64,000 nucleotides of DNA from the NCBI RefSeq assembly GCF_026319325.1, contig NZ_JAPDMU010000002.1:248001-312000 (forward strand). Reading direction: 5' to 3'. Made by a program: the position numbers and the translations under genes. Position 1 is the stretch's first letter; every line of letters starts with the position of its first letter. Shown here in pieces: positions 2,737 to 10,604 of the stretch. Source of the stretch: Methylophaga sp. OBS3. GTDB lineage: Bacteria; Pseudomonadota; Gammaproteobacteria; Nitrosococcales; Methylophagaceae. The notes under the pieces are model-generated. The model had not been told where the DNA came from. It saw only the letters and a list, made by a program, of their open reading frames with translations, and did no database searches.

Positions 2737-3690
2737 ATGTGCCTGTTCAATCGCTTGTTATGGGCCTTTGGAACCAGCTTCATTCTCATCAGCAGTCTGC
2801 TAGTAATGAGTTGTAAGCCGGCAAATGAGCCCACACTAAAAGTTGGCAATATTCCATGGGCTGGCTACGAGGTTCTCCATCTTGCTCGCGCTTTAGATTT
2901 ATACCCTGAAGATCGAATCAAACTGATTGAACTTAGCTCTTCTACGGAAACCTTGCGAGCGCTACGTCATGGACAGCTGGATGTTGGCGCTTTGACTTTA
3001 GACGAAGTGTTACGACTCTCTGAACAGATAGACGATTTACAGATCCTATTAATTACAGATATCTCAAATGGTGCTGACAAAATTATTGGCGGCCCCAACG
3101 TCAACAAACTCAGTGATCTGAAGGGTAAACGCATCGGCGTCGAAGAAGGTGCCGTCGGTGCCTATCTATTATTCCAAGCACTGCAAAAAGCAGAGCTTAC
3201 AGTGGATGATATTACGGTCGTTCCCTCTACGGTTAACCAACACTTTTCATTGATGCAAAAACGTCAGATTGATGCGGTTGTTACCTTTGACCCAACAGGC
3301 TACAAATTACAAGAACTAGGCTACAAACTTCTGATTGACAGCCAACACATAGACAGCAAAATCATGGATGTTTTGGTCGCTCGAAAAAGTGTTTTACAAA
3401 CGCATCCTGAGTCACTTCAATTACTCATCGATAATTATTGGCCAGCACTAGACTATTTAAAACAACACCCCAAAGAAGCCCACTCCATTATTGCCCCCAG
3501 ACTTGGCGTTAGCGTTAGCCAATTAGGAAGTTTATACCAACAACTTATCCTGCCAGATAAGCAGGAGAGCCAGCGTATTATGGAAACCGCTTTACCAAGC
3601 TATATTCAGCAAACTGGGGAGTTTTTGTTGCAGCAAGGGTTATTAACCCAAATTCCAGATAGTCCTTCATTGCTGCCAAACTATGAATAA
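2737..3690 (+). CDS. ABC-type substrate-binding lipoprotein (NMT1/TauA-like)
   Basis: This is a 317-aa periplasmic binding protein of the NrtA/SsuA/TauA/ThiY type. An N-terminal hydrophobic stretch ends in a lipobox (LLVMSC, Cys near residue 26), so it should be lipid-anchored. The motifs VGNIPWAGYE and GKRIGVEEGAVGAYLL are typical of the fold. No permease or ATPase gene is nearby. Its stop overlaps by 8 bp the start of a PAS/GGDEF/EAL protein, which suggests a sensory rather than transport role (inference). The ATG at 2737 follows AAGGA; a TTG at 2734 is an alternative. Confidence 0.85.
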   Translation: MCLFNRLLWAFGTSFILISSLLVMSCKPANEPTLKVGNIPWAGYEVLHLARALDLYPEDRIKLIELSSSTETLRALRHGQLDVGALTLDEVLRLSEQIDDLQILLITDISNGADKIIGGPNVNKLSDLKGKRIGVEEGAVGAYLLFQALQKAELTVDDITVVPSTVNQHFSLMQKRQIDAVVTFDPTGYKLQELGYKLLIDSQHIDSKIMDVLVARKSVLQTHPESLQLLIDNYWPALDYLKQHPKEAHSIIAPRLGVSVSQLGSLYQQLILPDKQESQRIMETALPSYIQQTGEFLLQQGLLTQIPDSPSLLPNYE

Positions 3691-6600
3691 ACCGTCACCT
3701 ATTGATACGTTCCGGTTAGCGTTATGGATCCCGACTATTGTCGTGGTGATGTTTTTAATTATTTCCGGTTTTCAGGCACGTTATGAATACAAAGAACGCA
3801 TCGAGTTAATAACTGAAAATGCACAAACACATCTCTATGAGAGCGCATTACAGCTTGCCCATACACTCGAGTATGCGCTCGCTAATCAACAGTTAGAACA
3901 AGTTCAAAGTGCTATTTCAGGTTTTGTTCTCGGTGACAGTGCACAACTTGCCGTATTAGTGAATAGTGAAGGGCGGGTAAGTTATAGCTCTCAATTTGCA
4001 TGGAAACATCTTGCTGCTGAAGATATTTTTGATTCGACCCAACGTGACTTATTGGCTAACAGCAATAATTTTCATGACATTCAACAGTATGCCGATGATG
4101 GACGCTTATTAGTTGCTGTTCCTCTTAATTTAACCGAAAAGCCATTACTCACCTCAAATCACCACCCACCTGTTCTCATTTTAGAAAGTGATGTCAGTCA
4201 CCAACTAGCGCAAGCTGGTCATCAATCTATACAGCAAACGTTGCCTTCCTTATTTCTATTTTTATTGGCAACCCTATTATTTATTACCATCATTCAGTCC
4301 ATAGCTGTAAAGCCGATTCAGGTTTTAAAAGGACTCGCTAAACAGCTCCATCAGCAAAATTTTGACCTGCATAATCCATTAAGAGGTAACACTGAGCAAA
4401 CCGCGGTTGGTGATGTGCTGGTGAATACCGGCAAGCAACTCAAACAATATATTGCTGACGTCACTGATCGTGAACAACGCTTACACATCACATTGCAATC
4501 CATCGGTGATGCCGTGATTGTGACTGATGCTAATGGCCTTATCACACGCATTAACCCTGTTGCTTGTCGATTAACAGGTTGGACAGAAGGCCAAGCTCTC
4601 GGCCAATCATTGATGAGTGTGTTTGATATATACAACGCCAATAACAATGAACCTATCGAGAATCCTGTTAGCAAAGTTCTTGAAACTGGCGATGTTGTTG
4701 AGCTCAGCAACAGTACTTTGCTATTAGCTCGAGATGGCACCAGATACCATATTTCTGATAGTGCCGCGCCTATTCGCTCAACAGCAGAACCTGATGCGCC
4801 TATTCTTGGAGTGATATTGGTTTTTCAAGATGTCTCAAAACAATATCAACTTCGCCAAGAGCTCAAACAATCGGTCGACTTTTTACAGAGCATGCTACGT
4901 GTTAGCCCAAGTGTGACTTATGTATTAGATATTCTGCCTGGCCCTGTATTTCGCCTTAGTTATGTCACAGAATCCGTAGAAGGGATTACGGGTATTAGTG
5001 CTGACTTTTGGTTAAAAAATCCCCACAACTGGCAACAACATATTCACCCGGAAGATGCCGCTCAGGTCATGGAAACCCTGCAACGAGCGTTGAATAACGA
5101 TAAACCTGTCAGTAATAGATTCCGTTTTAAACATAAAGATGGTCATTATCTATATGTTCAAGACTGCTTAAGTGCCAGTCAAACGCAAGAGGGTATGACG
5201 CAAATCGTTGGTGTGGTTCTAGACACTAGTGAGCAACAGCACATGCTGGCTGAGAATATGTTGCTTGGGGATATTCTTGAACGCTCGCTTAATGAAATTT
5301 ATATCGTTGATGCAGAAACGATGCTATTTACTCGCGTTAATCAAGGAGCAAGAAAAAATCTTGGTTATAGCATGGAAGAACTCCAAACCATGACGCCGTT
5401 GGATATAACGCGTGATATTTCACATGAACAGATGTTGGAGATTCTTGAACCACTTACCTCTCAAGAACAACCTAGACTACAGTTTGAAGCCCAACATTGG
5501 CGAAAAGATGGTTCAACTTATCCGGTGAGTGTTTCAATACAATCTGATTTTTATGATGATCGAAAAGTCTATGTCGCCATCATTGATGACATCAGTGAAC
5601 GAAAACAAACTGAGCAAGCACTTAATCTTGCCAATATGGTGTTCAAAAATAGTAATGAAGGCATCATTATTACCAATGCCGAAAACCGTATTATCCGAGT
5701 TAATGCCGCTTTCACCGATATGACCGGTTATGACGAGTCGGAAGTGCTAGAGCAAAATCCAAATTTACTGAAGTCTGGCAAACATGGCCTGCACTTCTAC
5801 GAAAACCTTTGGGAATCACTAAAACAAGAAGGTCGTTGGTCTGGGGAAATTTATAACCGACGTAAAAACGGTGAAATTTATCTGCAGTGGTTATCTATCA
5901 CTCAAGTCAATAACCAAGATGGACACTGTCAAAATTTCGTGGCGATCATGTCGGATATCACCAAATATCGCGAAGCTGAGCAACGTATTAACTTTTTAGC
6001 CCATCACGATGTACTCACCAAGCTTCCAAACCGTGCTTTACTTAGTGATCGCATTCGTCAGGCAGTAATTACCAATGATCGATATGGGCAAAAACTGGCT
6101 TTACTTTATTTAGACCTAGATCGTTTTAAATTTATTAACGACAGTCTTGGGCACGCTGTCGGTGACTTACTACTTATCTCGGTTGCTGAAAAGCTTAAAA
6201 AACAAATGCGAGATCAAGACACTGTCTGTCGAACAGGTGGTGATGAATTTATTATTTTGCTACCAGACACCGATGCTGATGGTGCTGCACACGTTGCCCA
6301 AAAGCTCATTGAGAAAATGACTGAGCCATTTGAAATTGAAGACAATCAATTATTTATTACGCTTTCAATTGGCATCAGTATTTACCCCGATAATGGTAAA
6401 GATCCTGAAACGCTCAATAAACATGCCGATACCGCTATGTATCGCGCTAAACACGCTGGTCGAAACCAATATCAGTTCTTCACAGAAGAAATGCATTCAC
6501 AGATCATCCATAAACTGGAACTGGAACATGCATTACGTTTTGCCCTAAGCCGTGAACAGCTCTATTTAGCCTACCAACCGCAAGTTGATCTTACGTCCAA

Positions 6601-7288
6601 TAAAATCAGTGGCGCTGAAGTTTTACTTCGCTGGCACTACCCTCCAGTAGGTGACATTTCTCCTTTAGAATTTATTCCTGTCGCCGAAGAGACAGGCATG
6701 ATTAATCCTATTGGTCACTGGATATTGGACACCGCCATTGGCCAATGTAAAAAATGGTATGACGATGGTCATCAAGATTTAGTTATGGCTATCAACATAT
6801 CAGCCGTGCAGTTTAATAACCCAATGTTAGTCAGTACCATCGTAGAGCTACTTGAAACGCACAATCTTCCCCCGAAAAACCTCGAGCTAGAAATCACTGA
6901 GTCGGTCGCCATGTTTAATATGGATCTCACCATTAAACAAATGCAGGCCATGGCTGCTGCAGGAATTCGGTTATCGTTGGATGACTTTGGAACAGGTTAT
7001 TCTTCGTTGAGTTATCTGAAAAAATTTCCGATCAATAAACTCAAAATCGATCAAAGCTTTGTTTTTGACATGCTTGATGATCCTGATGATGCCGCGATTG
7101 TTGATGCCGTGATAACGCTGGCACATTCACTGGGATTAAAAACACTCGCTGAAGGGGTTGAAACCCATGATCACCTTCTAGCCTTAAAAGAAAAAGGCTG
7201 CGATCTCATGCAAGGTTTTTATTTTAGTAAACCGATCTCTGCTGAAGATTTCGAAAACATGTTAGTTGCACAAACTGAAAACAGGTAA
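3683..7288 (+). CDS. PAS-GGDEF-EAL cyclic-di-GMP sensor protein
   Basis: This 1201-aa membrane protein combines diguanylate cyclase and c-di-GMP phosphodiesterase modules. It has membrane helices near 13-30 and 188-207 with a periplasmic sensor region between. A HAMP-like segment (about 208-262) and four PAS domains (about 265-385, 400-515, 525-640, 645-765) follow. The GGDEF domain (770-935) has an intact GGDEF motif at 852-856. The EAL domain (945-1195) reads EVL at the signature but keeps DDFGTGYSS. Both activities may be present. Translational coupling to the binding lipoprotein suggests ligand-dependent control (inference). Confidence 0.93.
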   Translation: MNKPSPIDTFRLALWIPTIVVVMFLIISGFQARYEYKERIELITENAQTHLYESALQLAHTLEYALANQQLEQVQSAISGFVLGDSAQLAVLVNSEGRVSYSSQFAWKHLAAEDIFDSTQRDLLANSNNFHDIQQYADDGRLLVAVPLNLTEKPLLTSNHHPPVLILESDVSHQLAQAGHQSIQQTLPSLFLFLLATLLFITIIQSIAVKPIQVLKGLAKQLHQQNFDLHNPLRGNTEQTAVGDVLVNTGKQLKQYIADVTDREQRLHITLQSIGDAVIVTDANGLITRINPVACRLTGWTEGQALGQSLMSVFDIYNANNNEPIENPVSKVLETGDVVELSNSTLLLARDGTRYHISDSAAPIRSTAEPDAPILGVILVFQDVSKQYQLRQELKQSVDFLQSMLRVSPSVTYVLDILPGPVFRLSYVTESVEGITGISADFWLKNPHNWQQHIHPEDAAQVMETLQRALNNDKPVSNRFRFKHKDGHYLYVQDCLSASQTQEGMTQIVGVVLDTSEQQHMLAENMLLGDILERSLNEIYIVDAETMLFTRVNQGARKNLGYSMEELQTMTPLDITRDISHEQMLEILEPLTSQEQPRLQFEAQHWRKDGSTYPVSVSIQSDFYDDRKVYVAIIDDISERKQTEQALNLANMVFKNSNEGIIITNAENRIIRVNAAFTDMTGYDESEVLEQNPNLLKSGKHGLHFYENLWESLKQEGRWSGEIYNRRKNGEIYLQWLSITQVNNQDGHCQNFVAIMSDITKYREAEQRINFLAHHDVLTKLPNRALLSDRIRQAVITNDRYGQKLALLYLDLDRFKFINDSLGHAVGDLLLISVAEKLKKQMRDQDTVCRTGGDEFIILLPDTDADGAAHVAQKLIEKMTEPFEIEDNQLFITLSIGISIYPDNGKDPETLNKHADTAMYRAKHAGRNQYQFFTEEMHSQIIHKLELEHALRFALSREQLYLAYQPQVDLTSNKISGAEVLLRWHYPPVGDISPLEFIPVAEETGMINPIGHWILDTAIGQCKKWYDDGHQDLVMAINISAVQFNNPMLVSTIVELLETHNLPPKNLELEITESVAMFNMDLTIKQMQAMAAAGIRLSLDDFGTGYSSLSYLKKFPINKLKIDQSFVFDMLDDPDDAAIVDAVITLAHSLGLKTLAEGVETHDHLLALKEKGCDLMQGFYFSKPISAEDFENMLVAQTENR

Positions 7289-7299
7289 AGGAGCCTTTT

Positions 7300-7533
7300 A
7301 TGCGCCAACAACAAGTCGATCAAATTGAAGTATTACTTCACTTCAACCTAGACAGTACATTACAAGGAATCAAAATCCATCATGATGCGCGTCAAGGTTT
7401 AGTTGATGCAGCCAAACAACTTCATGAATTAGGTCTTATCAGTAACGAAGATGGTGGTTATCTCACCGAACTCGGACATAAAGCCGCTGAACACTTACAA
7501 CAAGCACTTCGTATTATGAAACCTATCAATTAA
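7300..7533 (+). CDS. TIGR02647-like small protein
   Basis: This 77-aa protein resembles the conserved TIGR02647 family of gammaproteobacteria, recalled from sequence pattern only. It appears to be a small winged-helix-like all-helical protein, with LVDAAKQLHELGLISNEDGG then YLTELGHKAAEHLQ. AAGGAG stands 7 bp before the ATG. It is 11 bp downstream of the c-di-GMP sensor gene and overlaps the convergent folA stop by 8 bp. Its function is unknown. Confidence 0.75.
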   Translation: MRQQQVDQIEVLLHFNLDSTLQGIKIHHDARQGLVDAAKQLHELGLISNEDGGYLTELGHKAAEHLQQALRIMKPIN

Positions 7534-8014
7534 TACGCTGATAAATTTCAAAACAGTAGTCATACTGGTTTTTACTGTCTGCTTGATGTTTTTCTTGCGA
7601 CAGTAACTGCCAGTCTGACCAGTTAATCTCAGGAAACCAGGTATCACCCTCAAGTGATGCCTGAACACGTGTTAAATAAAGCTTATCTGCCTTGGGCAAC
7701 AACTGTTCATACAAAGACGCTCCGCCCATCAACATCACTTCTTCCTCATCAATACACATGTTTAATGCTGAATCAGGATCGGCCGCTAATTCACAACCTT
7801 CAGCGGGCTGAAAATCAGCCTGACGAGTCACAACAATGTTTCGTCTTCCAGGTAAGGCTCTACCAATCGACTCATGCGTATTACGGCCCATGATCAACGG
7901 TTTGCCCATCGTAGTACGTTTAAAAAACTGTAAGTCCGCAGATAACCGCCAAGGCAAGTCATTATCACGACCTATTAATCGATTTTCATCCATCGCAACA
8001 ATTATCGATAACAT
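7526..8014 (-). CDS. folA: Dihydrofolate reductase
   Basis: FolA reduces dihydrofolate to tetrahydrofolate with NADPH. The protein is about 162 aa, the standard length. Hallmarks are the N-terminal IIVAMDENRLIGRDNDLPW, the TTMGKPLIMGRNTHESIGR cofactor segment and a C-terminal half with MLMGGASLYEQ. I prefer the second ATG (8014), because AGGGG sits 6 bp before it, while the ATG at 8020 would abut that sequence. It is divergent from priA across a 424-bp gap with DnaA boxes. Confidence 0.96.
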   Translation of the reverse strand: MLSIIVAMDENRLIGRDNDLPWRLSADLQFFKRTTMGKPLIMGRNTHESIGRALPGRRNIVVTRQADFQPAEGCELAADPDSALNMCIDEEEVMLMGGASLYEQLLPKADKLYLTRVQASLEGDTWFPEINWSDWQLLSQEKHQADSKNQYDYCFEIYQRIN

Positions 8015-8438
8015 TTTCATCCCCTAAAACAGCTGCGACAGCATAACAGTTATACACCGCTGGCAAAGCTTTCACCTGTTTACAAAAGTGTTAAACCAAC
8101 ATTTTCAAACAACGATAAGCTTAAATTCCAGATCATCACTAAATTAAATTTAATATTTAAATTCAAACACTTAAACAAAAATCCAATATTGCATAAAGTC
8201 TGTACAAGATCGGTATGGTTGGTAGAACATTAGGGATCATAACCTGTGGATAAAATTCCCTGTGGATAACTCACATAATTATCCACAAGCAATCAATGTC
8301 GCAAAACGAAAGTTACCCACAGGTAAAATAGCTGTTAAGTTGTTAATTTAAATCAGCTAAACAAATTTATCCCAATATTCACAGGCATAAAACATTAACA
8401 TCATAAAACTCTTTCTATCTCTTTACTTGTATTGATTA
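8015..8438. other. folA-priA intergenic region with DnaA-box cluster (candidate oriC)
   Basis: This gap carries no gene. Three perfect 9-mer DnaA boxes are seen: TGTGGATAA at 8245-8253 and 8261-8269, and TTATCCACA at 8279-8287. Two one-mismatch boxes follow at 8313-8321 (TTACCCACA) and 8375-8383 (ATATTCACA). On the left, 8140-8163 is 24 bases of A/T only. On the right, two CTCTTT repeats lie 10 bp apart at 8410-8425. GATC occurs at 8131, 8208 and 8235. This resembles an oriC or a DnaA-regulated or DnaA-titrating site. The alternatives cannot be separated without genome-wide skew data. Confidence 0.6.
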
Positions 8439-10604
8439 ATGTCTTGCATCATCGAAATTGCCATCAATTGTCCGCTTAGACAAACATTCGACTATTTGTC
8501 TGATGAACAACCAGATGTCTGGCAAAAAGGCATGAGAGCCAAAGTGCCTTTTGGCAGCAAGCAAGTCATCGGTATCGTGACCGATATCAAAATGGAAGAA
8601 ACTCAAGATCGAAAATTAAAAACCATCACCGAGCGTCTTGATGATTCACCTTGTTTTGATTCGGAACGATTTGAACTCATTCGCTGGATAAGTGCTTATT
8701 ACCATCATCCTATTGGCGACTGCTTTGCCACGGCCTTGCCAAAAAAAATTCGCCTAGGTGAACCGCTTAGCCCAACCCTTAAAAATGTATGGTCTGCTAA
8801 ACCCAGCGAAGCGCCGAAATTAGGTCAAAAACAGCAAGCCATTTTGAGTGAGTTGCAAACTTCAGAACGTGGATTGGATGAAACCGAATTAAAAAACCGC
8901 TTAGGTAACGTCAAACCCAGTTTGCAAGGGCTTGCTGAAAAAGGTTTAGTTGAGTCACAACAACATGTCGATGTTGAATGGAGTACCGAGAACAAAGAAA
9001 AAACTTGGCCTTTAAACCCTGAACAACAAGTCGCTTTTGATGAAATCCATGGCCAATCCGGCCAATTTCAACCATTTTTATTACATGGCATAACCGGAAG
9101 TGGCAAAACCGAAGTCTATTTGGCCTTAGCGAGAGAACAAATAAAACTTGGCAAACAAGTACTTATTTTGATTCCTGAAATAAGTCTGAGTGGTCAATTT
9201 GTTAATCGTTTTAAAGCCGGCATCACTGGAAGAGTGGTACTTAGTCACTCTGCCATTAACGATAATCAACGAAAACAAGCTTGGTCATTAGCCCAAAGTG
9301 GTGAAGCTGATGTCATTATCGGAACAAGATCAGCCGTATTTATGCCACTAAAACGGCCTGGCTTAATGATTATTGATGAGGAACACGACGGCGCTTTTAA
9401 ACAACAAGATGGACTTCGTTATCACGCCAAAAATGTTTTATTGATGCGTGCCAAAAACGTCAATGTACCCGTCGTAATGGGAAGTGCCACACCCTCGTTA
9501 GAAAGTCTTTATCAAGTTCAGCAAAACCGTTATCGATTGTTAACGTTAAAACAACGTGCTGGTAACGCTCGTTTACCCAATATGTCGTTGATTGATTTAA
9601 GTTTGCAACCTCAAGCTGTCATCAGTAGAGAACTACAAGAAAAAATCGCCAATCATTTAGCTAAACAACAACAAGTTTTGTTGTTTATAAATCGACGTGG
9701 CTTTGCTCCGGTTTTGATGTGTCATAGCTGTGAATGGCAAGCAACATGTCGAAGCTGTGATGCAAAACTGGTTGTGCATCAACACAAAAATCAATTGTTT
9801 TGTCATCACTGCGGTCTCATTCAACGACTTCCAGAATCATGTCCCGAATGTGACAGTACTGATCTCAATACCTATGGCGCTGGTACCGAAAAAATCAGTC
9901 AAATGGTGCAAGGCTTATTTCCCGATACGCCGGTATATCGAATCGATCGTGACACAACACAAAAAGTAAATGCCTTTGATGATTTATTTGAGCCGATTCG
10001 AAATGGCCAATCCGCTATTTTGGTTGGTACCCAAATGCTGGCAAAAGGGCATGATTTTCATAACGTTACTTTGGTTGGTGTGTTAGATGCTGATCAAGGG
10101 TTATTTAGTGCTGATTTTCGGGCAACAGAATATTTAGCCCAAGCCGTTATTCAAGTCACCGGACGTGCGGGACGGGGAGAGCAACAAGGTGAAGTTGTGA
10201 TACAAACAAGACAAATCAGTCACCCATTCTGGGCTGATGTATTGACTCAAAACTATGGCAAACTAGCCAATGAGTTATTGGCTGAACGCTCTGCAATGCA
10301 ATTACCACCGGCAAGTTACTGGGCAATTTGGCGCGCAGAATCACCAGTGAATTTTCAAGCGATGGAATTATTGCAATTACTCGCCGATAAGGTGGGTAAT
10401 CAACACCATGTTCAAGTAATGGGACCTGTTCCTGCGATTATGGAAAAACGTGCTGGTCGTTATCGGGCGCAATTGGTTTTTTCAAGCCAATCTCGAAACG
10501 CGTTACATCAATTAATTGATAAACATTTAGCAACAATTAGCAAAGCCAAACTTGCGCGAAAAGTTCGTTGGTCACTGGATATCGATCCGATTGAGCTAAT
10601 GTAA
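8439..10604 (+). CDS. priA: Primosomal helicase PriA
   Basis: PriA (721 aa) is the superfamily-2 helicase that restarts stalled replication forks. The N-terminal DNA-binding part (about 1-200) is followed by Walker A GITGSGKTEVY, the DEEH box in IIDEEHDGAFKQ and the GSATPSLES motif. An eight-cysteine zinc region (CHSC, CRSC, CHHC, CPEC) sits inside the helicase. The C-terminal motif with GRAGRG is intact. No clear ribosome site precedes the ATG. priA-argS-SPOR order is conserved in pseudomonads. DnaA boxes lie immediately upstream. Confidence 0.97.
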   Translation: MSCIIEIAINCPLRQTFDYLSDEQPDVWQKGMRAKVPFGSKQVIGIVTDIKMEETQDRKLKTITERLDDSPCFDSERFELIRWISAYYHHPIGDCFATALPKKIRLGEPLSPTLKNVWSAKPSEAPKLGQKQQAILSELQTSERGLDETELKNRLGNVKPSLQGLAEKGLVESQQHVDVEWSTENKEKTWPLNPEQQVAFDEIHGQSGQFQPFLLHGITGSGKTEVYLALAREQIKLGKQVLILIPEISLSGQFVNRFKAGITGRVVLSHSAINDNQRKQAWSLAQSGEADVIIGTRSAVFMPLKRPGLMIIDEEHDGAFKQQDGLRYHAKNVLLMRAKNVNVPVVMGSATPSLESLYQVQQNRYRLLTLKQRAGNARLPNMSLIDLSLQPQAVISRELQEKIANHLAKQQQVLLFINRRGFAPVLMCHSCEWQATCRSCDAKLVVHQHKNQLFCHHCGLIQRLPESCPECDSTDLNTYGAGTEKISQMVQGLFPDTPVYRIDRDTTQKVNAFDDLFEPIRNGQSAILVGTQMLAKGHDFHNVTLVGVLDADQGLFSADFRATEYLAQAVIQVTGRAGRGEQQGEVVIQTRQISHPFWADVLTQNYGKLANELLAERSAMQLPPASYWAIWRAESPVNFQAMELLQLLADKVGNQHHVQVMGPVPAIMEKRAGRYRAQLVFSSQSRNALHQLIDKHLATISKAKLARKVRWSLDIDPIELM

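Follow-up and report, generated by a model that had tools for sequence, protein, structure and literature searches.

The window, i.e. the whole stretch of 64,000 nucleotides analysed here, covers C4:248001-312000 (C4 being the contig) of Methylophaga sp. OBS3, the genome of which comprises 2.30 Mb in 8 contigs. The original prediction placed a candidate replication origin between folA and priA. Both genes were confirmed by Pfam, the gap between them is indeed free of genes, and it holds three perfect DnaA boxes, spanning 43 bp, exactly where they had been predicted (8245, 8261 and 8279, the last one inverted). Two further boxes had been described as having one mismatch each, which is correct for the box at 8313 but not for that at 8375, which has 2 mismatches against TTATCCACA and 1 against TTATNCACA. 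The 24-base A/T-only tract on the left and the CTCTTT repeats on the right (about 8409-8425) are also real. The features are collected in Table 1.

Table 1. Features of the folA-priA region in OBS3 (positions in the window)
Feature	Position	Strand	Remarks
folA (dihydrofolate reductase), left neighbour	7526-8020	-	Pfam
24-base A/T-only tract	8140-8163		weakest duplex in window; position not conserved
Predicted oriC (DnaA-box cluster and unwinding region)	8200-8438	+	unique cluster; local skew minimum; conserved across 41 aligned family loci
DnaA box 1, perfect TTATCCACA	8245-8253	-	kept across family
DnaA box 2, perfect TTATCCACA	8261-8269	-	7 bp past box 1; kept across family
DnaA box 3, perfect TTATCCACA, inverted	8279-8287	+	9 bp past box 2; 0-1 mismatch in most family members
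DnaA box 4, TTACCCACA, one mismatch	8313-8321	+	relatives' consensus TTATnnACA
Two overlapping weak DnaA boxes, TTATCCCAA (8367-8375) and ATATTCACA (8375-8383)	8367-8383	+	8 bp apart; face unwinding region
Conserved three-base-periodic element CATTAACATCA	8393-8403	+	may be a single-strand DnaA-binding element; 9 bp past last box
A/T-rich stretch with CTCTTT repeats, probable DNA-unwinding element	8404-8438	+	ends at priA start codon; its counterpart overlaps the weakest 40 bp in 35 of 41 aligned loci
priA (primosomal helicase), to the right in every locus examined	8439-10604	+	Pfam

Immediately left of box 1, the relatives share a block GTATAA...ATAAGATCGATCA, which is degenerate in OBS3 (window 8205-8244). 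Farther to the left, the 1201-residue ORF at 3683-7288 resembles, on reading its sequence, a PAS-GGDEF-EAL signalling protein and is preceded by a substrate-binding-like protein. The right flank of the window encodes formylmethanofuran dehydrogenase and formyltransferase subunits.

To see how exceptional the cluster is, DnaA boxes were counted over the whole genome (2.30 Mb, 8 contigs). The count came to 22 perfect boxes, and a reversed control pattern matched 19 times, so that overall the motif shows no enrichment. No second pair of perfect boxes within 1 kb of each other was found elsewhere in the 2.30 Mb; perfect boxes are thus clustered in the folA-priA gap and nowhere else. By arithmetic from the genome box density, about 2e-6 triples of perfect boxes within 43 bp would be expected. 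The cluster is also the strongest one across the surrounding 138 kb. Thus, the intergenic DnaA-box cluster expected of an oriC lies in this gap, and DnaA itself is present in the genome.

The architecture is conserved among relatives, as it should be for an oriC. Of 24 genomes of the same genus, 21 have a single copy of the arrangement TGTGGATAA-7-TGTGGATAA-9-TTATCCACA, with at most 1 mismatch in the boxes, and the 14 triplet loci examined first are all directly upstream of priA. Two other genera of the family have the same layout upstream of priA, the third box being weak or lost in a few. Outside the family, a class-wide sample of 369 genomes contains no such triplet at up to 1 mismatch. The left neighbour is folA in 26 of the 41 loci and another gene in the other 15, which makes priA the constant partner. 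In these 15 loci (e.g. L065 and L116), a gene ending ...SLKSLLLRRGAEGxLSIAxM... converges on the origin. The place of the cluster next to priA and the fixed layout of its boxes both seem peculiar to the family.

In the 41 aligned loci, read toward priA, boxes 1-2 point away from that gene and boxes 3-5 point toward it; then follow a spacer of mostly 9 bp, an 11-base element (CATTAACATCA, CATCATCATCA, CAACAACAACA and similar) and an A/T-rich stretch up to the start codon. In 35 of the loci, the weakest 40 bp of duplex lie between +142 and +204 relative to box 1, and in 4 between +77 and +135, so that in 39 of 41 they are on the priA side of the boxes. OBS3 provides one of the two loci with a weaker tract on the left; its A/T run at 8140-8163 begins the weakest 40-bp stretch of the window. 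We rejected this left tract, which had been proposed as part of the origin, as a general unwinding element, for its position varies among relatives; the conserved A/T-rich stretch is the one on the priA side. Judged from sequence stability alone, an A/T-rich element is therefore present beside the boxes, and the stretch on the priA side is the probable unwinding element. The three-base periodicity of the 11-base element is no more than suggestive, as the test pattern itself favours such a period.

The original prediction would place the skew minimum near 8.2 kb. GC skew was calculated from sampled stretches of the genome, and the cumulative minimum over C4 230-330 kb fell at C4:256804 (window 8804), about 0.5-0.6 kb from the box cluster (C4:256245-256287). 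In the sampled stretches, the skew of C4 is negative from 1 up to about 256 kb, apart from small exceptions at 200 and 242 kb; farther on it is positive, apart from one exception near 308-312 kb and one value near zero at 380 kb. The opposite switch, from plus to minus, was sampled near 550-600 kb of C3. A dif-like match occurs at a single place in the genome, C3:612290, with 3 mismatches. The skew switch opposite the terminus thus lies at the folA-priA cluster, as expected of an oriC. In closed chromosomes of relatives, the sign switches at the same locus or within about 12 kb of it; taken individually, some relatives deviate, with the minimum or change point about 9 kb (G007) or 12-14 kb (G022) away and the raw-skew minimum of G065 20 kb away.

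Such offsets bear on a second location. The genes at 240-256 kb mostly run toward priA, which makes the recF-gyrB end (C4 about 239.7 kb) a serious rival as the origin, with the cluster at priA then serving as a datA-like site for DnaA titration. The skew minima of three relatives are displaced to the recF-gyrB side, the genes at 248-255 kb are directed toward priA and so toward the origin proposed here, and the sister family has recF and gyrB just past dnaN, adjoining its box cluster. We used the skew at third codon positions to separate replication arm from gene direction. From 239.7 to 256.4 kb, plus-strand genes have a mean of -0.114, compared with -0.137 for plus-strand genes of the left arm and +0.035 for those of the right arm, and minus-strand genes have a mean of +0.098, compared with +0.106 on the left arm; genes on both strands thus carry the skew of the left arm. 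A combined change-point fit of OBS3 and four relatives, with an approximate likelihood, has its maximum 0 to +1 kb from the cluster. Over the five genomes, a change point 2 kb off on either side is 9 to 15 log units worse, and placing it at -14 to -16 kb costs more than 60 log units relative to the cluster. The sharpest placement comes from G009 and G065, whereas G022 alone prefers -14 kb and G007 is uninformative; OBS3 alone has its optimum at +11 kb, on the priA side, where the fit exceeds that at the cluster by 2.0 log units. Besides, there is no box cluster at the recF-gyrB end. On the third-position skew, the change point and the absent box cluster, an origin at that end was rejected as very unlikely.

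In every locus examined, priA is the gene immediately downstream of the boxes, which would also suit a DnaA operator for priA (or folA) unrelated to initiation. An operator predicts neither a skew switch nor a conserved, easily melted stretch, and five or more boxes with fixed spacing in facing arrays would seem to exceed its needs; we give this explanation hardly any weight, though the boxes may possibly affect priA transcription in addition. Gammaproteobacterial origins usually lie beside dnaA or mnmG, which would leave the cluster as a datA- or DARS-like regulatory site, but this is extremely improbable and an origin at either gene was rejected: mnmG (C4:312 kb) and dnaA (C4:358.5 kb, minus strand) are 56 and 102 kb to the right, deep in mostly positive skew, neither has a cluster of perfect boxes nearby, and the cluster at priA, instead of lying away from the origin like a datA site, coincides with the skew switch. 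Neither the titration site nor the operator, both named as alternatives from the start, accounts for the switch of replication arm at the cluster.

The gap between folA and priA is therefore almost certainly the chromosomal oriC of OBS3, a methylotrophic gammaproteobacterium, and of its family Methylophagaceae, a reading supported by the skew minimum, the third-position change point, the conserved triplet and the weak duplex. It is an ordinary DnaA-type oriC, known as a kind, in an unusual and family-specific place, next to priA and about 100 kb from dnaA, the customary landmark. By analogy with other DnaA-type origins, DnaA would bind boxes 1-3 tightly and nucleate there, spread toward priA over the weaker boxes 4 and 5, and capture one strand of the 11-base element. 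The A/T stretch directly before the priA start codon would then melt, the DnaB helicase would be loaded, probably by DciA since a dciA gene is present in the genome, and two forks would depart in opposite directions.

The Escherichia coli oriC (mnmG-mioC) has a box cluster with an A/T-rich unwinding stretch on one side, faced by the nearest box, and lies at the skew minimum, separate from dnaA. The OBS3 origin is similar in all these respects, but it adjoins priA and differs in box number and spacing; SeqA was not found in the OBS3 genome, and the loader is probably DciA rather than DnaC. The dnaA-dnaN origin of the sister family (Nitrosococcus-like G023, G025 and G026) also has boxes facing outward from a central divide, and the gene block dnaA, dnaN, recF, gyrB, fhc genes, argS and priA is shared. 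In that family, however, the boxes sit between dnaA and dnaN with a period of 11-12 bp, and no such cluster is found near priA. The basal unwinding system of Bacillus subtilis consists of DnaA-boxes and DnaA-trios, the latter defined as at least 3 NAN motifs of the 3'-GAT-5' type, at most 16 bp from a box and on the correct strand (PMC8287927). OBS3 resembles it in the tandem weak boxes, the 9 bp spacer and the three-base-periodic element adjoining the unwinding stretch, but its triplets do not fit this published pattern. A strict DnaA-trio at 8384-8404 was rejected, as at most two triplets are in register by hand reading; a few relatives with CATCATCATCA reach three, with TAG instead of GAT.

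In OBS3, the origin has recF-gyrB 17 kb to its left, and on its right come priA at 0.2 kb and dnaA-dnaN (C4 357-360 kb) at 102 kb. Across six family genomes, dnaA-dnaN is 74-216 kb off the origin; in each of them it lies on the priA side and is directed toward the origin, i.e. in lagging orientation. For comparison, Nitrosococcus-like G026 has dnaA, the box cluster, dnaN, recF, gyrB, the fhc genes, argS and priA within 26 kb. Since the boxes of the sister family are clustered between dnaA and dnaN, the Methylophagaceae lineage probably moved its origin, or rearrangements carried dnaA-dnaN away. More tentatively, and rather doubtfully, the whole family may have moved the origin away from dnaA-dnaN, its ancestral site, to the priA promoter, and may use there a diverged DnaA-trio of (C/T)A(A/T) triplets, the melting of which would be physically linked to transcription of priA, the gene for the restart helicase.

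Some observations concern other genomes of the order. Perfect DnaA-box triples within 35 bp occur at G026:C2:1364285-1364319, G026:C2:1365860-1365894 and G025:C2:1545512-1545546, far from the dnaA-dnaN origin, and are possible regulatory or mobile-element sites. G024:C1, a closed 1.85 Mb record of an order relative (L176, L218, L219), starts with dnaN-gyrB and has no dnaA or recF in its first 11 kb or last 20 kb; no match to DnaA domain IV was found in this genome, TTATCCACA is not enriched in it, and G024 may have lost DnaA.

In a literature search outside DoriC and most subscription papers, we found no paper on a Methylophaga origin or a gammaproteobacterial origin adjacent to priA. Neither Ori-Finder 2022 nor gammaBOriS mentions an origin adjacent to priA in its main text, and a Francisella paper merely names priA among the genes near the Francisella origin.

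In conclusion, the finding provides a precisely bounded, family-wide origin in a new gene context, for which an origin search relying on dnaA would look about 74-216 kb off. For the question of how origins move, the sister family, whose boxes are clustered at dnaA-dnaN, is a natural comparison, and the conserved triplet element may be a diverged single-strand DnaA-binding site, which can be tested.
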